A stretch of 37,677 nucleotides of DNA, from the NCBI GenBank assembly GCA_017625835.1, contig JAGAKF010000012.1:1-37677 (forward strand). The letters are read 5' to 3'. The notes beneath the pieces were generated by a model, which saw only the letters and a list, made by a program, of their open reading frames with translations, was not told the origin of the DNA and ran no database searches. The translations under genes were made by a program, and so were the position numbers. This DNA comes from Clostridia bacterium. GTDB taxonomy: Bacteria > Bacillota > Clostridia > Oscillospirales > Acutalibacteraceae. Below, piece by piece: positions 34,335 through 37,677 of this stretch. Each line of letters starts with the position of its first letter. Positions within the stretch are counted from its first letter, which is position 1.

Positions 34335-35513
34335 TCAGACATTTGAATCGTATTTATTCTGCTTTTTAAGTCGGTTAACAAAGCACTTGAGGGCAATAAC
34401 CATTATTGCATAGAGTAAGGCAAGCAGCACGGGATATATCTTGATTCCGAACAGTCCGCTTATCAGACTGACAGCAGGCGGTGCAAGCATAACACCGATA
34501 TATGCAAATGCTATCTGTGAGCCCATAATCGATTGCGAAACATCTTTGCCGAAATTGTGAGGTGTCAGGTGTATCATATTCGGATAGATTGAACCATTGC
34601 CCAAGCCAATAAGGAATAAACCGACAACTGTAACCGCACCGTGAAGAGGAAGAAGCATTAATAAAATTGCAGGGGCGAGAATTGCCGAGCCGATTCCGAT
34701 GCGTTTCCATGTGCTGATTTTATCAGAAAGTAAACCTGAAACGAAACGTCCTACTGACATTCCGACATAATATACAGTCAGAGCAAGCGCTCCGTGTTTT
34801 GCCTCGAAGCCTTTTTCTGAAACAAGATATGTACTTCCCCATACTCCGCAGGCATATTCGATTGCGTTCGTTGCAAGCATAATGATCCATACCTGACGGA
34901 CTTCAGGCATTTTTGCCATCTGAACAAGAGTAAGGTTTACACTGTTTTCCTCTTCCGATTCATCGGCAGAGGATGATTTCTTCCACATGGGAACAGAAAT
35001 AATTAAAAGCAAAGTGATTGCTGCCTGAACATAAAACGCATAGCGATAACCGCTGCGCCACCCTGCATTGCTTAATGCCTGTGACATAAGATAAGGACTC
35101 AGACTTACTCCGACACCGTAAAAACAATGCAGAAAATTCATATGACTTGCTTTAAAATGCAGAGCAACGTAATTGTTAAGTCCAGAGTCGATCGCACCTG
35201 CTCCGAGTCCGAGGACAACGGCAAGCGGTATCATAAACCAGAAAGACGGAGCAAAAGAGAAACCAAGCAAAGCGGCAGCTGTCATAGCTGTGCTGAAAGC
35301 CGTGACCTTGGCTGTACCGAATTTGTTGAGAATACCTGCACTGAACATACTTGACAGGACTGTGCAGCCCGAAATAATAAATGTGAGAACACTTACCGCT
35401 TCAACGGGAATATTCATTTCCGTATGAATAGCAGGCCAGGCAGAACCGATGAGTGAATCAGGAACACCGAGACCTATAAATGCAACATATATAACAACTA
35501 ATAAAAAAACCAT
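34335..35513 (-). CDS. MFS transporter (fucose permease-like)
   Basis: 392-residue major facilitator with about twelve spans. The N-terminal GLGVPDSLIGSAWPAIHTEM, the FGTAKVTAFSTAM loop and VVLGLGAGAIDSGLNNYVALH resemble FucP-like carriers of Firmicutes. The second half has the VGRFVSGLLSDKI motif and FLIGLGNGSIYPNMIH. GGAGG precedes the ATG. The gene sits between a VOC protein (42 nt) and the GH106-like enzyme (19 nt). It probably imports the sugar or glycoside that the enzyme cleaves. Confidence 0.9.
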   Translation of the reverse strand: MVFLLVVIYVAFIGLGVPDSLIGSAWPAIHTEMNIPVEAVSVLTFIISGCTVLSSMFSAGILNKFGTAKVTAFSTAMTAAALLGFSFAPSFWFMIPLAVVLGLGAGAIDSGLNNYVALHFKASHMNFLHCFYGVGVSLSPYLMSQALSNAGWRSGYRYAFYVQAAITLLLIISVPMWKKSSSADESEEENSVNLTLVQMAKMPEVRQVWIIMLATNAIEYACGVWGSTYLVSEKGFEAKHGALALTVYYVGMSVGRFVSGLLSDKISTWKRIGIGSAILAPAILLMLLPLHGAVTVVGLFLIGLGNGSIYPNMIHLTPHNFGKDVSQSIMGSQIAFAYIGVMLAPPAVSLISGLFGIKIYPVLLALLYAIMVIALKCFVNRLKKQNKYDSNV

Positions 35514-35555
35514 AAATCCTCCGAATTTTAATCCTGTGCTAAAATGATAATCTGA

Positions 35556-35918
35556 TTACACTGGTGTTCCCACTTCGATTAAATTACCGTCTAAATCGTA
35601 GAAACGTATTACCCGTTGACCCCAACTGTGCGTCATAAGACGATTTACATATTCAATCGAGGGGTATAATTTTTCTAATTTTTCAACGAAAGATTCGATA
35701 TCTTGCTCCTCAAAATACAATTCGCAAGAGTTGCTCTTTGGGACAATATCTCTATCTAAAAAAGATTTCCATATTTTCTCGTCTTGAAGGACAAGACCTT
35801 CTGTTAAAATCATATTGCCGTCGTTATCAAGCACCAACTCTATGCCAAACAAATCGTGATAGAATTTTCTTGATTTTTCTATGTCTTTAACAACGATCAG
35901 AATGTTCTTCAATTTCAT
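35556..35918 (-). CDS. VOC family protein (glyoxalase/bleomycin-resistance fold)
   Basis: 120-residue single vicinal-oxygen-chelate domain protein. It begins MKLKNILIVVKDIEKSRKFYHDLFGIEL, the standard first beta-alpha unit, and ends with RVIRFYDLDGNLIEVGTPV, which carries the usual metal-site Glu. A likely partner residue is in ELYFEE. GGAGAA precedes the ATG. The substrate is unknown. A dyad repeat copy (35932-35972) lies 13 nt upstream of its start codon, between it and the GH16 gene. Confidence 0.93.
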   Translation of the reverse strand: MKLKNILIVVKDIEKSRKFYHDLFGIELVLDNDGNMILTEGLVLQDEKIWKSFLDRDIVPKSNSCELYFEEQDIESFVEKLEKLYPSIEYVNRLMTHSWGQRVIRFYDLDGNLIEVGTPV

Positions 35919-35931
35919 ATCATTTCTCCGT

Positions 35932-35972
35932 CAAATTCTTATTTATCTAACTGTTCTATAAATTGGAATTTG
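35932..35972. repeat. Dyad repeat copy A (41 nt)
   Basis: Plus-strand arms CAAATTCTTATTTATC (35932-35947) and TATAAATTGGAATTTG (35957-35972) form an imperfect inverted repeat; the second arm holds the inner palindrome AAATT-GG-AATTT. It aligns without gaps to copy B. The stop codon of the GH16 gene and its last few codons lie in this copy. Confidence 0.85.
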
Positions 35973-37026
35973 CTGTTCTGTACAAATCAGGGATCTTACT
36001 TAACAAACGCTCAAAGAACTGATGACACTGCGTATAAAGGTCTTGAAAAAATGATAAAATACGCTGTTCAAATGCAGTGAGCGAGTCGCACATATCTTTA
36101 ATAAAACGCTCAAATTTTGTAAGTCTGTTGTTTTCGTCATAACCGTTTTTATCTTTATACACACGGACGTAATCAATAAGCCATTCTATGGGATAGACAT
36201 TTTCAGGTTCATCCCAACCGCTGAAATCAGAATTGATATACATAGACAGAATCATACACATTCTGTATTGGGGTGATTCTATGGTCTTAGCCACTTCTTT
36301 TCCGTCCACATAAAATGTTATCCCTTCAGGTCTCCAGTCCATAGCATAGGTGTGAAATTCGTTTACATAATCCATCGGGTCGCCATCCAATTCAACTTTG
36401 CTTGCCCATTCGTCAAGATCGGGATCATCCCATGCATGAACCTTGGGTTCAAACACTCCCGGAGATTTGAAAAAGGTTTCCAATACGTCTATTTCACCAT
36501 TCTGCTGAGAACCTGTTCCGTCGGGACGGACATCATCCTCTGCACCTATAAGCCACCATGATGCGTATCCGCCGCCCTTGGTGTCAGGCATTTTCATTCG
36601 TATCTCAAAGTAGCCGTACTGTGTGGCATATCCTTCGTAAGGCTCAACTTCCCTCTGCTGACTACCGCCGGGATGCAGATGATTCTTTTCCCATGTCTGA
36701 ATACCGTTGGCTATCCATAAAAGATTATCGGGATCTGTCGAGCCGGGCTGACCGCCGAAATAATCAGGCGAATCCTTTGTGATATACAGATTCAGACAAC
36801 CGTTCTCAATTTTATACCTTGCAGAGGAGCCTTCAGTGCTGGTAGTACAGTGAGGCAGGTATTGTGGTAGCCAGTATTCTGTATTTAAATTACCGTCATC
36901 AAATTCGGTGCTGAAATCAAGCACATATCCTTCTTTTTCAGGAACGCTGTCTTCTGCAGATGCTCCTATCGGCAATCCGACAAGCATAGATAAAACAAGC
37001 AACAAAACCATACTTTTTCTGAACAT
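35956..37026 (-). CDS. Secreted GH16 glycoside hydrolase (beta-glucanase type)
   Basis: 356-residue exported enzyme. Signal peptide: MFRKSMVLLLVLSMLVG, cleavage near GASA. The GH16 sandwich shows the FSTEFDDGNLNTEYW start, GYFEIRMKMP, WWLIGAEDD and the active site E178-I-D-V-L-E183 in GEIDVLETF, the six-residue form found in laminarinases and agarases. FHTYAMDWRPEGITFYVDG and WLIDYVRVYK end the domain at about residue 295. A 60-residue amphipathic tail follows (FEQRILSFFQDLYTQ, FFERLLSKIPDLY). The last five residues, ANSNL, are encoded by repeat copy A. It likely cuts a beta-1,3-linked or mixed glucan outside the cell. The start has GAAAGGAT upstream. Confidence 0.93.
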   Translation of the reverse strand: MFRKSMVLLLVLSMLVGLPIGASAEDSVPEKEGYVLDFSTEFDDGNLNTEYWLPQYLPHCTTSTEGSSARYKIENGCLNLYITKDSPDYFGGQPGSTDPDNLLWIANGIQTWEKNHLHPGGSQQREVEPYEGYATQYGYFEIRMKMPDTKGGGYASWWLIGAEDDVRPDGTGSQQNGEIDVLETFFKSPGVFEPKVHAWDDPDLDEWASKVELDGDPMDYVNEFHTYAMDWRPEGITFYVDGKEVAKTIESPQYRMCMILSMYINSDFSGWDEPENVYPIEWLIDYVRVYKDKNGYDENNRLTKFERFIKDMCDSLTAFEQRILSFFQDLYTQCHQFFERLLSKIPDLYRTANSNL

Positions 37027-37045
37027 AGTTTGTTATCCTTTCGTA

Positions 37046-37086
37046 CAAATTCTTATTTTCATAACAGTTCGACAAATTGGAATTTA
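37046..37086. repeat. Dyad repeat copy B (41 nt)
   Basis: Arms CAAATTCTTATTTTC (37046-37060) and TCGACAAATTGGAATTTA (37069-37086). Aligned without gaps, about 34 of 41 positions match copy A. It lies between the GH16 gene and the pyrophosphatase-like gene and supplies the stop codon of the latter. Confidence 0.85.
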
Positions 37087-37428
37087 TCGACGTATTAAAA
37101 CACCTTTCATAAACTGTGTTTCATTATGTGTTTCGTAAACTATTTCCTTTTCCTCTTCTGTGCATCCAATTAATATTTTAATTTCTGAATCTTTCTTCAT
37201 CAAATCAACTATGCACATTATTGCATCAACCTTTTTCTCGTCGCTTCCAACCCACACATCTATTCCTGCACCATCCATAGAGGTTGTGTCCTTTAAATAT
37301 CCATAATCAACCCGATAAATGAAATCAGGATACTTAGGGTGTGAAGTCCCTTTTGGTCTATCAATTATTATTTCTGAATTATTCACCAATTCATCTAATG
37401 CGTTCCAAAATTCAACATTATGTTGCAT
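37084..37428 (-). CDS. Small inorganic pyrophosphatase-like protein
   Basis: 114-residue protein that carries the core of family I soluble inorganic pyrophosphatase: IDRPKGTSHPKYPDFIYRVDYGYL and the active-site-like DGAGIDVWVG, where the classical enzyme has DGDPLDV. Family I enzymes are about 170 residues; here the first strands and the C-terminal helix are trimmed. One of the three conserved active-site acids (second Asp of DGD) is replaced by Gly. It may be a small PPase-fold protein with another role. AGAGGA lies upstream of the ATG, and a promoter is embedded in repeat copy C. Confidence 0.8.
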   Translation of the reverse strand: MQHNVEFWNALDELVNNSEIIIDRPKGTSHPKYPDFIYRVDYGYLKDTTSMDGAGIDVWVGSDEKKVDAIMCIVDLMKKDSEIKILIGCTEEEKEIVYETHNETQFMKGVLIRR

Positions 37429-37465
37429 CTTATCAATCCTCTACAAATTCTTATTTATCGAGATC

Positions 37466-37493
37466 ATTATACCACCCGCAAAACAAAAAGCAA
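37466..37493 (-). promoter_or_regulatory. Promoter of the pyrophosphatase-like gene
   Basis: On the minus strand, TTGCTT (37488-37493), a 16-nt spacer and TATAAT (37466-37471). The -35 box is formed by the 3' arm of the terminator just upstream. Confidence 0.65.
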
Positions 37494-37515
37494 CAGTTTT
37501 CAGGCTGTTGCTTTT
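37486..37515 (-). terminator. Terminator inside repeat copy C
   Basis: An 11-bp perfect stem (37486-37496 with 37505-37515) with an 8-nt loop, followed on the minus strand by TTTTTGTTTT. It would end transcription from the partial gene at the window edge. Confidence 0.8.
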
Positions 37516-37597
37516 GAGGTTTCAGTTCGATAAATTGGAATTTGTTGAACTGATAAGCAAAAATTTTATTGTTACTACCAAAGGCATTTAAAACAAT

Positions 37598-37677
37598 CTA
37601 TCTCGTCCAAGCATATTCATACATATCTATTCCTGATTCATTCTTCTCAAGACATTTTATTTCATGTAGACATAAAT
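37598..37677 (-). CDS. 3' end of an unidentified gene (partial)
   Basis: The minus strand stays open from the window edge for 25 codons and ends at a TAG (37598-37600). The translated tail includes KNESGIDMYEYAWTR. A terminator follows 83 nt later. The fragment is too short for a family call, and its status as a gene rests on the open frame, its plausible composition and the layout, where each neighbour is followed by a dyad repeat. Confidence 0.45.
   Translation of the reverse strand, partial: LCLHEIKCLEKNESGIDMYEYAWTR

Follow-up and report, generated by a model that had tools for sequence, protein, structure and literature searches.

In many gut bacteria, short slots that run from promoter to terminator hold a gene that is replaced, edge to edge, by unrelated genes from other species, one of them a known antibiotic-resistance gene. 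Sequence comparison delimits this unit, its boundaries, its spread between bacterial families and the geometry of its promoter and terminator. We consider it likely that these are interchangeable single-gene slots of a gene-cassette system, swapped by site-specific recombination at the cores of two sites, L and R. On balance, and with more reserve, we lean towards a broader view: an undescribed and widespread cassette system of gut Clostridia, with expression slots on chromosomes, mini integrative elements and transposons, through which hosts acquire, lose and exchange genes at two sites that are inverted and not identical. The enzyme would probably be one that has so far been linked to no cassette system. 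Such a system would reach other phyla, and it would have supplied genes to transposons of clinical and veterinary bacteria, lnu(C) among them. No account of this site family or system was found in the open-licence papers searched, which is weak evidence of absence.

Results

The array in the window

The window, i.e. the whole stretch of 37,677 nucleotides that was analysed, is the entire contig C98, and the contig end falls inside an array of genes separated by dyad repeats (Table 1). The first-pass annotation had described three dyads, A (35932-35972), B (37046-37086) and C (37444-37552), with no further copy in the window, and both observations were reproduced: patterns of the 17- and 18-base arms (up to three mismatches each) gave six matches, each in or overlapping A, B or C, compared with means of 0.41 and 0.14 in shuffled sequences, which never reached six. 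In copy B, the L half has diverged further and lies outside these six matches; its inner 13 bases match exactly. All three complete genes are, as had also been claimed, co-oriented on the minus strand and mutually unrelated, with Pfam scores of 105 bits for VOC/glyoxalase, 51 bits for GH16 and 26.1 bits for the InPase-like gene, just under the cut-off of 26.8. The unit proposed at that stage was one repeat plus one gene. Each copy is, however, not a single element but the R site of one gene followed by the L site of the next. Each dyad thus consists of two back-to-back half-sites, R (CAAATTCCAATTTRTCGAAC) at the stop codon and then L (GTTCGAYAAATAAGAATTTG), which opens the next gene and lies just ahead of the ribosome-binding site of that gene, on whose side its inner end points. 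The gap from R to L is 1 nt in copies A and B and 61 nt in copy C, where it holds a hairpin with a T-run and a -10 box. The same genome has one more half-site (1 mismatch) on a 3,059-bp contig, which starts with GAATTTG, the inner end of an L site.

Table 1. Features of the cassette array, in window coordinates.
Feature	Position	Strand	Basis or remark
Cargo gene 1, VOC/glyoxalase	35556..35918	-	Pfam; without R site after it in this genome
L site, cargo gene 1	35932..35951	-	First half of copy A
R site, cargo gene 2	35953..35972	-	Second half of copy A
Cargo gene 2, GH16-like	35956..37026	-	Pfam; stop codon inside R
L site, cargo gene 2	37046..37065	-	First half of copy B; outer arm diverged
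R site, cargo gene 3	37067..37086	-	Second half of copy B
Cargo gene 3, small inorganic-pyrophosphatase-like protein	37084..37428	-	Pfam just under cut-off
L site, cargo gene 3	37444..37463	-	First half of copy C
Putative slot promoter, -10 box TATAAT	37466..37471	-	Ends 2 nt before the L 20-mer; same spacing in 18/36 L sites elsewhere
Terminator-like hairpin and T-run after upstream cassette	37480..37515	-	Terminators after R in 61/172 cases
R site, upstream truncated cassette	37525..37544	-	Second half of copy C
Fourth cassette, 3' end, cut by contig end	37545..37677	-	99% identical to the end of a cassette in genome G460

The window genes in other genomes

Copies of the window's VOC gene with 86-91% nucleotide identity are present in ten genomes, which represent seven genera and four families; the window's own family is not among the four. 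The likeness begins within about 20 nt of L and stops at or near the stop codon; an R-like sequence follows the gene in several of the ten copies and in more distant ones, and none is evident in three of the ten (loci L268, L271 and L274) or in the window. For the GH16 gene, an 87% identical copy was found in genome G460 (same family, other genus) behind a different promoter-like stretch with a TATAAT-like box, and the InPase-like gene has relatives at about 78-80% nucleotide identity in four genomes of the order. The truncated fourth cassette corresponds to the end of a complete G460 cassette (L346, on another contig, with a 213-aa ORF), whose outer R arm differs from that of the window. Moreover, a relative (L347) holds an array with several R-A-L junctions of the same type as in the window; the strict pattern used to search for such junctions misses some that are visible in other slots. 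The recurrence of repeat-bounded genes as units in different contexts and genomes, together with this multi-cassette array, supports the "divergent cassette system" that was among the suggestions of the first-pass annotation. The stretch upstream of the neighbouring MFS gene differs in all seven genomes of the genus that have this gene, and no L or R site was found in the stretches examined there. Copies of the repeat are scattered, but they are tied to gene exchange.

Independent assortment of genes and surroundings

Between L and R, loci L018 and L035, which come from different families, agree in 597 of 613 positions, yet their flanks are unrelated and their outer arms differ. Further pairs of loci show the same pattern. 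Conversely, four pairs of loci (L043/L081, L157/L172, L152/L164 and L103/L138) share a flank, up to 100% identical as far as the core, and hold different genes; L157 and L172 are two copies of one slot element within one genome. Among 166 R sites (core TG only, with at least 100 nt on both sides), flanks were unrelated in 54 of 58 pairs with similar cargo and cargo was unrelated in 81 of 85 pairs with similar flanks, four pairs sharing both; these pairs have members in common and are not independent. Up to six contexts were found for a cargo cluster (13 of 136 clusters occur in more than one) and up to eleven cargoes for a context (21 of 111 contexts have more than one). Within the site itself, position 7 tracks the flank (67% identity in same-flank pairs vs 44% in same-cargo pairs) and position 20 tracks the cargo (80% in same-cargo vs 46% in same-flank pairs). 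Since position 7 follows the flank and position 20 the cargo, the switch lies in the 12-bp core AAATTGGAATTT, between positions 8 and 19 of the 20-mer. Contigs also tend to break near the sites: of 121 R sites, 51 are no more than 500 bp away from the end of their contig, compared with 7.9 expected, and among those within 1000 bp of an end, 50 of 64 have the break on the cargo side, as expected if the cargo varies or recurs in the sampled population.

L and R might instead be conserved UTR signals, for example a 5'-3' mRNA stem, with the apparent exchanges due to homologous recombination or assembly error. L does adjoin a promoter, R precedes terminators and the two are complementary. However, near-identical genes sit in unrelated flanks with just 12-20 common bases at each edge, and shared stretches of 12-20 bases are too short for homologous recombination. 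The passenger of the transposon ISSag10 also changes in deposited plasmid records. In 35400-37677, Rfam models yielded two matches, with E values of 0.11 and 0.55, both scoring far below the gathering thresholds. We regard this explanation as very improbable.

Slot anatomy and junction types

Promoters and terminators were counted at L sites whose core is AA and R sites whose core is TG, provided that 60 nt or more of outside sequence was available. TATAAT (up to one mismatch) occurs within 20 nt of L in 26 of 36 sites, compared with 28% in shuffles, and in 18 of these 36 L sites the -10 box ends exactly 2 nt before the L 20-mer; at R sites the corresponding numbers are 38 of 174 and 20%. Terminator-like hairpins follow R in 61 of 172 cases (172 of the 174 R sites were scored), with one in shuffles, and lie outside L in 4 of 36, with none in shuffles. 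There are several slot families, with different promoters and outer arms, and this variation of the arms blurs the recognition site. One family (L154, L084, L167 and L178) has a leader like GTAATACAAAGGCGAAACTGGCGATAAAACA before L, with no adjacent TATAAT, and is perhaps served by another promoter type or a regulated leader. At L048 (7377-12822), tandem elements each repeat the 3' end of a gene that we take to be rubrerythrin-like, together with its terminator and a promoter, and each holds a different, unrelated gene.

L and R are inverted, and their core letters mostly differ (AAG vs TGG). At gene ends the core is TG in 103 of 112 sites and AA in one, and at gene starts, where some ORFs are misassigned, it is AA in 26 of 53 and TG in 16. 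Besides these two kinds of site, five candidate inner-inner junctions, in which two genes are fused at one core without outer arms, were found (L122, L019, L050 and two in L052). In outer-outer junctions, the candidate empty slots at L015 and L020, the left flank runs straight into R. In L028, which is occupied, a similar flank precedes L; identical alignment columns number 131 of 152 for L015 and 111 of 156 for L020. The right flanks of both are unlike that of L028, and no pair of filled and empty slots that agree in both flanks was found. The inner 7 nt of R match a known outer arm (up to one mismatch) in 28 of 207 R sites, compared with 0.7% in controls; because R is nearly symmetric, the distinction between inner and outer arm is blurred, and for this reason and because of the differing right flanks L015 and L020 stay candidates. 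All three slots, the apparently empty ones at L015 (1378-1520) and L020 (1288-1425) and the occupied one at L028, lie directly 3' of a gene for a phage-type integrase.

These junctions also bear on gene-carrying, MITE-like mini-transposons, whose terminal inverted repeats would be L and R and whose transposase would act in trans. Inverted ends, a single gene and dispersed copies are what such elements would have, and a MITE family had been proposed for the dyads from the window alone. However, the outer arms stay with the location while the gene changes: they differ between copies of one gene and are common to different genes of one slot. Moreover, a cut-and-paste element would not be expected to fuse two genes at a single core. 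A MITE origin therefore seems improbable to us.

Spread of the sites

In a set of 148 genomes, made up of that of the window and related ones, R (up to one mismatch) was found in 34, with 58 matches in all, compared with three for a reversed control pattern. In 398 genomes of the phylum, a near-identical R pattern matched only in the window's genome, with none of 392 genomes outside the order and none of the five others inside it. An exact scan of a public genome set returned at least 117 stretches with the site. By record title, those listed are mostly bins of Oscillospiraceae or other Clostridia; ten are titled Bacteroidales, Prevotella or Prevotellaceae, and one each Flavobacteriaceae, Thermoguttaceae and Akkermansia. 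In the contig titled Thermoguttaceae, the cassette stretch has a G+C content of 0.39-0.41, compared with 0.44-0.65 around it. Most of the loci analysed come from metagenome bins, and the evidence is comparative. In two contigs titled Prevotella (L075 and L125), the R site lies directly upstream of a gene that is presumably FKBP-like, with the cargo just before it on the same strand.

Cargo genes and the passengers of ISSag10

Cargo ORFs were listed by rule (150 ORFs, some surely spurious, with about 117 cluster representatives). Leaving out the doubtful ones, we analysed 81 proteins, i.e. 77 cluster representatives and four further ORFs (three of the window set and L010); the L020 integrase, on the inner side of an R site, was not included. 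They matched 95 Pfam families. The 25 families listed include GNAT, HTH, GrpB, VOC, methyltransferases and AAA proteins, and no recombinase; the commonest GNAT model accounts for 13 proteins.

One cargo of the window's genome is Lnu(C), with 357.8 bits against a cut-off of 300. This lnu(C)-type lincosamide resistance gene forms a cassette at L010 (21-515, contig C47), and the same gene lies in a different slot on the contig titled Thermoguttaceae (L090, 5398-5892), identical at 468 of 495 bases. On plasmids, lnu(C) sits in ISSag10, and the sequences that border it there are diverged yet can still be recognised as L- and R-like. In a plasmid of Campylobacter coli, ISSag10 carries a GNAT gene instead of lnu(C), and in a C. 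jejuni plasmid the passenger of ISCco2, which is 95% identical to ISSag10, is a gene for an AAA protein. The three passengers (L293, L296 and L297) thus lie behind one diverged L site, with left flanks alike up to AGAATTTG; the right flank resumes after CAAAT for the GNAT passenger and is not shared for the AAA passenger of ISCco2. The exact L sequence of ISSag10 was found in one of 197 genomes of the order, again with lnu(C). Beside the gut slots, ISSag10-like transposases were limited to two weak matches, about 30% identical, at the overlapping loci L033 and L055.

Search for a recombinase

A recombinase very likely performs the gene exchange, and it would act in trans. Its nature bears first on the reading of the dyads as a divergent integron, with attC-like sites and an unseen integron integrase, as the plan of copy C had suggested to the first-pass annotation. 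Small single genes in arrays behind a promoter, a GNAT-rich cargo that includes resistance genes, gene-gene fusions at one core and candidate empty sites all agree with an integron. The junctions of copies A and C also form hairpins: when folded as single-stranded DNA, they were reached by at most one of 200 shuffles, and copy B did not fold better than shuffles (22 and 26 of 200). However, the integron integrase model TIGR02249 gave no match over the cut-off in ten site-rich genomes, five of which are less than 90% complete. It had been noted from the window that the attC core GTTRRRY is not kept in all copies, and this extends to the whole family, whose consensus is GTTCGAY, with C at position 4 in 79-94% of sites; copy A (GTTAGAT) fits GTTRRRY by chance. 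In addition, the switch lies in the AT-rich 12-bp core and not at G/TT, and half-sites occur at both ends of single dispersed genes. Altogether, the integron reading is not supported, and we give it hardly any weight.

No recombinase was found consistently beside the slots when recurrent ORFs around them were compared; these ORFs include a single cluster of phage-type integrases with four members, of which three lie no more than 141 bp from a site. A family of tyrosine recombinases of about 280 aa, the sole family tested for co-occurrence, was rejected: it is present in 10 of 34 site-positive and 25 of 114 site-negative genomes (p = 0.37), and the nine stretches around its genes hold no L- or R-like sites. 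Members of this family (L332, L335, L336 and L338-L340) lie beside varied genes, with up to 15 matches in one genome (G124). Serine recombinases were set aside as well, being present in 15 of 17 genomes, site-positive and site-negative alike. The array had no match in phage records.

Our leading guess, tentatively held, is a Xer-type tyrosine recombinase, host-encoded or related. An order-wide Xer-like protein matched strongly in 14 of 17 genomes, and the three without a strong match are 77-84% complete. A palindrome TTNNACAAAA-N6-TTTTGTNNAA lies within 7 kb of the gene for this protein in five genomes (G006, G097, G104, G122 and G126); of 14 stretches around the gene, 4 contained such palindromes. 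Beside the Xer-like gene at L225, L227, L229 and L230, the palindrome is near-perfect and makes a candidate dif site. The general Firmicutes dif pattern was uninformative, with one match (one mismatch) in 10 genomes, compared with four control matches.

A dif site has two 11-bp arms around a 6-bp centre. The slots might be a kind of Acinetobacter-type dif module, in which genes between dif-like sites are moved by the host Xer; this would be a special case of the cassette system that names the enzyme, and we see it as possible, though short of an even chance. Genes between inverted sites, in several contexts, are the pattern of dif modules (PMC6449649). The outer arm of the cassettes, TTCGAYAAAT, has the leading TT and the AYAAA of the palindrome, an arm likeness (TT..AYAAA) noticed after the fact. 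However, the arms of the cassette sites are spaced 2 bp closer than in the predicted dif palindrome, and the two N letters are mostly CG in cassettes and vary by host in the palindrome. The palindrome pattern alone is also unspecific, with a reversed control matching in 10 of 25 genomes, and the same Xer-like protein is present in site-negative genomes.

Discussion

In the mechanism we propose, a slot would comprise a promoter, the L site, a gene with its ribosome-binding site, the R site and often a terminator, and might lie on a chromosome or on a mobile element. The gene between the L and R cores would be replaced, gained or lost through site-specific recombination at these cores, the outer arms remaining with the slot and the inner arms moving with the gene. 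Such recombination should leave four arm combinations, outer-inner (L), inner-outer (R), inner-inner and outer-outer. The four junction types found are consistent with this, and their simplest reading is recombination at the cores by an enzyme acting in trans. Genes might move as excised circles, by double exchange between two slots (a natural cassette exchange), or by both routes, and back-to-back sites (R-A-L) would give rise to operon-like arrays such as that of the window. The differing cores of L and R could fix the direction of the gene and favour slot-to-slot exchange over excision. The idea that they help to fix direction is weak, because 16 of the 53 gene-start sites have TG, and the differing cores would not be the whole story, given the gene-gene fusions and the candidate empty slots.

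The integron, the textbook cassette system, was not found in the ten site-rich genomes tested, and a second system of different build, by which single genes are taken up behind an existing promoter, would account for some of the gene turnover in gut Clostridia. L and R would also provide a simple sequence handle for collecting such cargo from metagenomes. Moreover, the slots suggest a route by which passengers such as lnu(C) may have entered small transposons.

Among known systems, the slots resemble integron cassettes in that small promoterless genes are gained or exchanged as units beside a promoter, form arrays and include GNAT-type and resistance cargo. In contrast to integrons, inverted half-sites lie here at both gene ends, and many dispersed slots have their own promoter and often a terminator; the integrase, the GTTRRRY consensus and the position of the switch set the two apart as well. 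The dif (pdif) modules of Acinetobacter, as described in PMC6449649 and PMC13141974, consist of genes between inverted short recombination sites, with a module in different contexts and the recombinase encoded outside it. Inverted sites around a gene and the same module in several contexts were likewise found here, whereas the sequence, symmetry and spacing of the sites differ, and the slots are mainly chromosomal slots of gut Clostridia with a built-in promoter and terminator. A third comparison is with insertion sequences that carry passenger genes, here those of the IS1595 family, to which ISSag10 belongs and in which a review places MTnSag1, an element with lincosamide resistance (PMC5704250). 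Plasmid ISSag10 holds lnu(C) or other passengers between L- and R-like sequences, as the slots do; the difference is that the transposon is just one of many places that hold such a slot.
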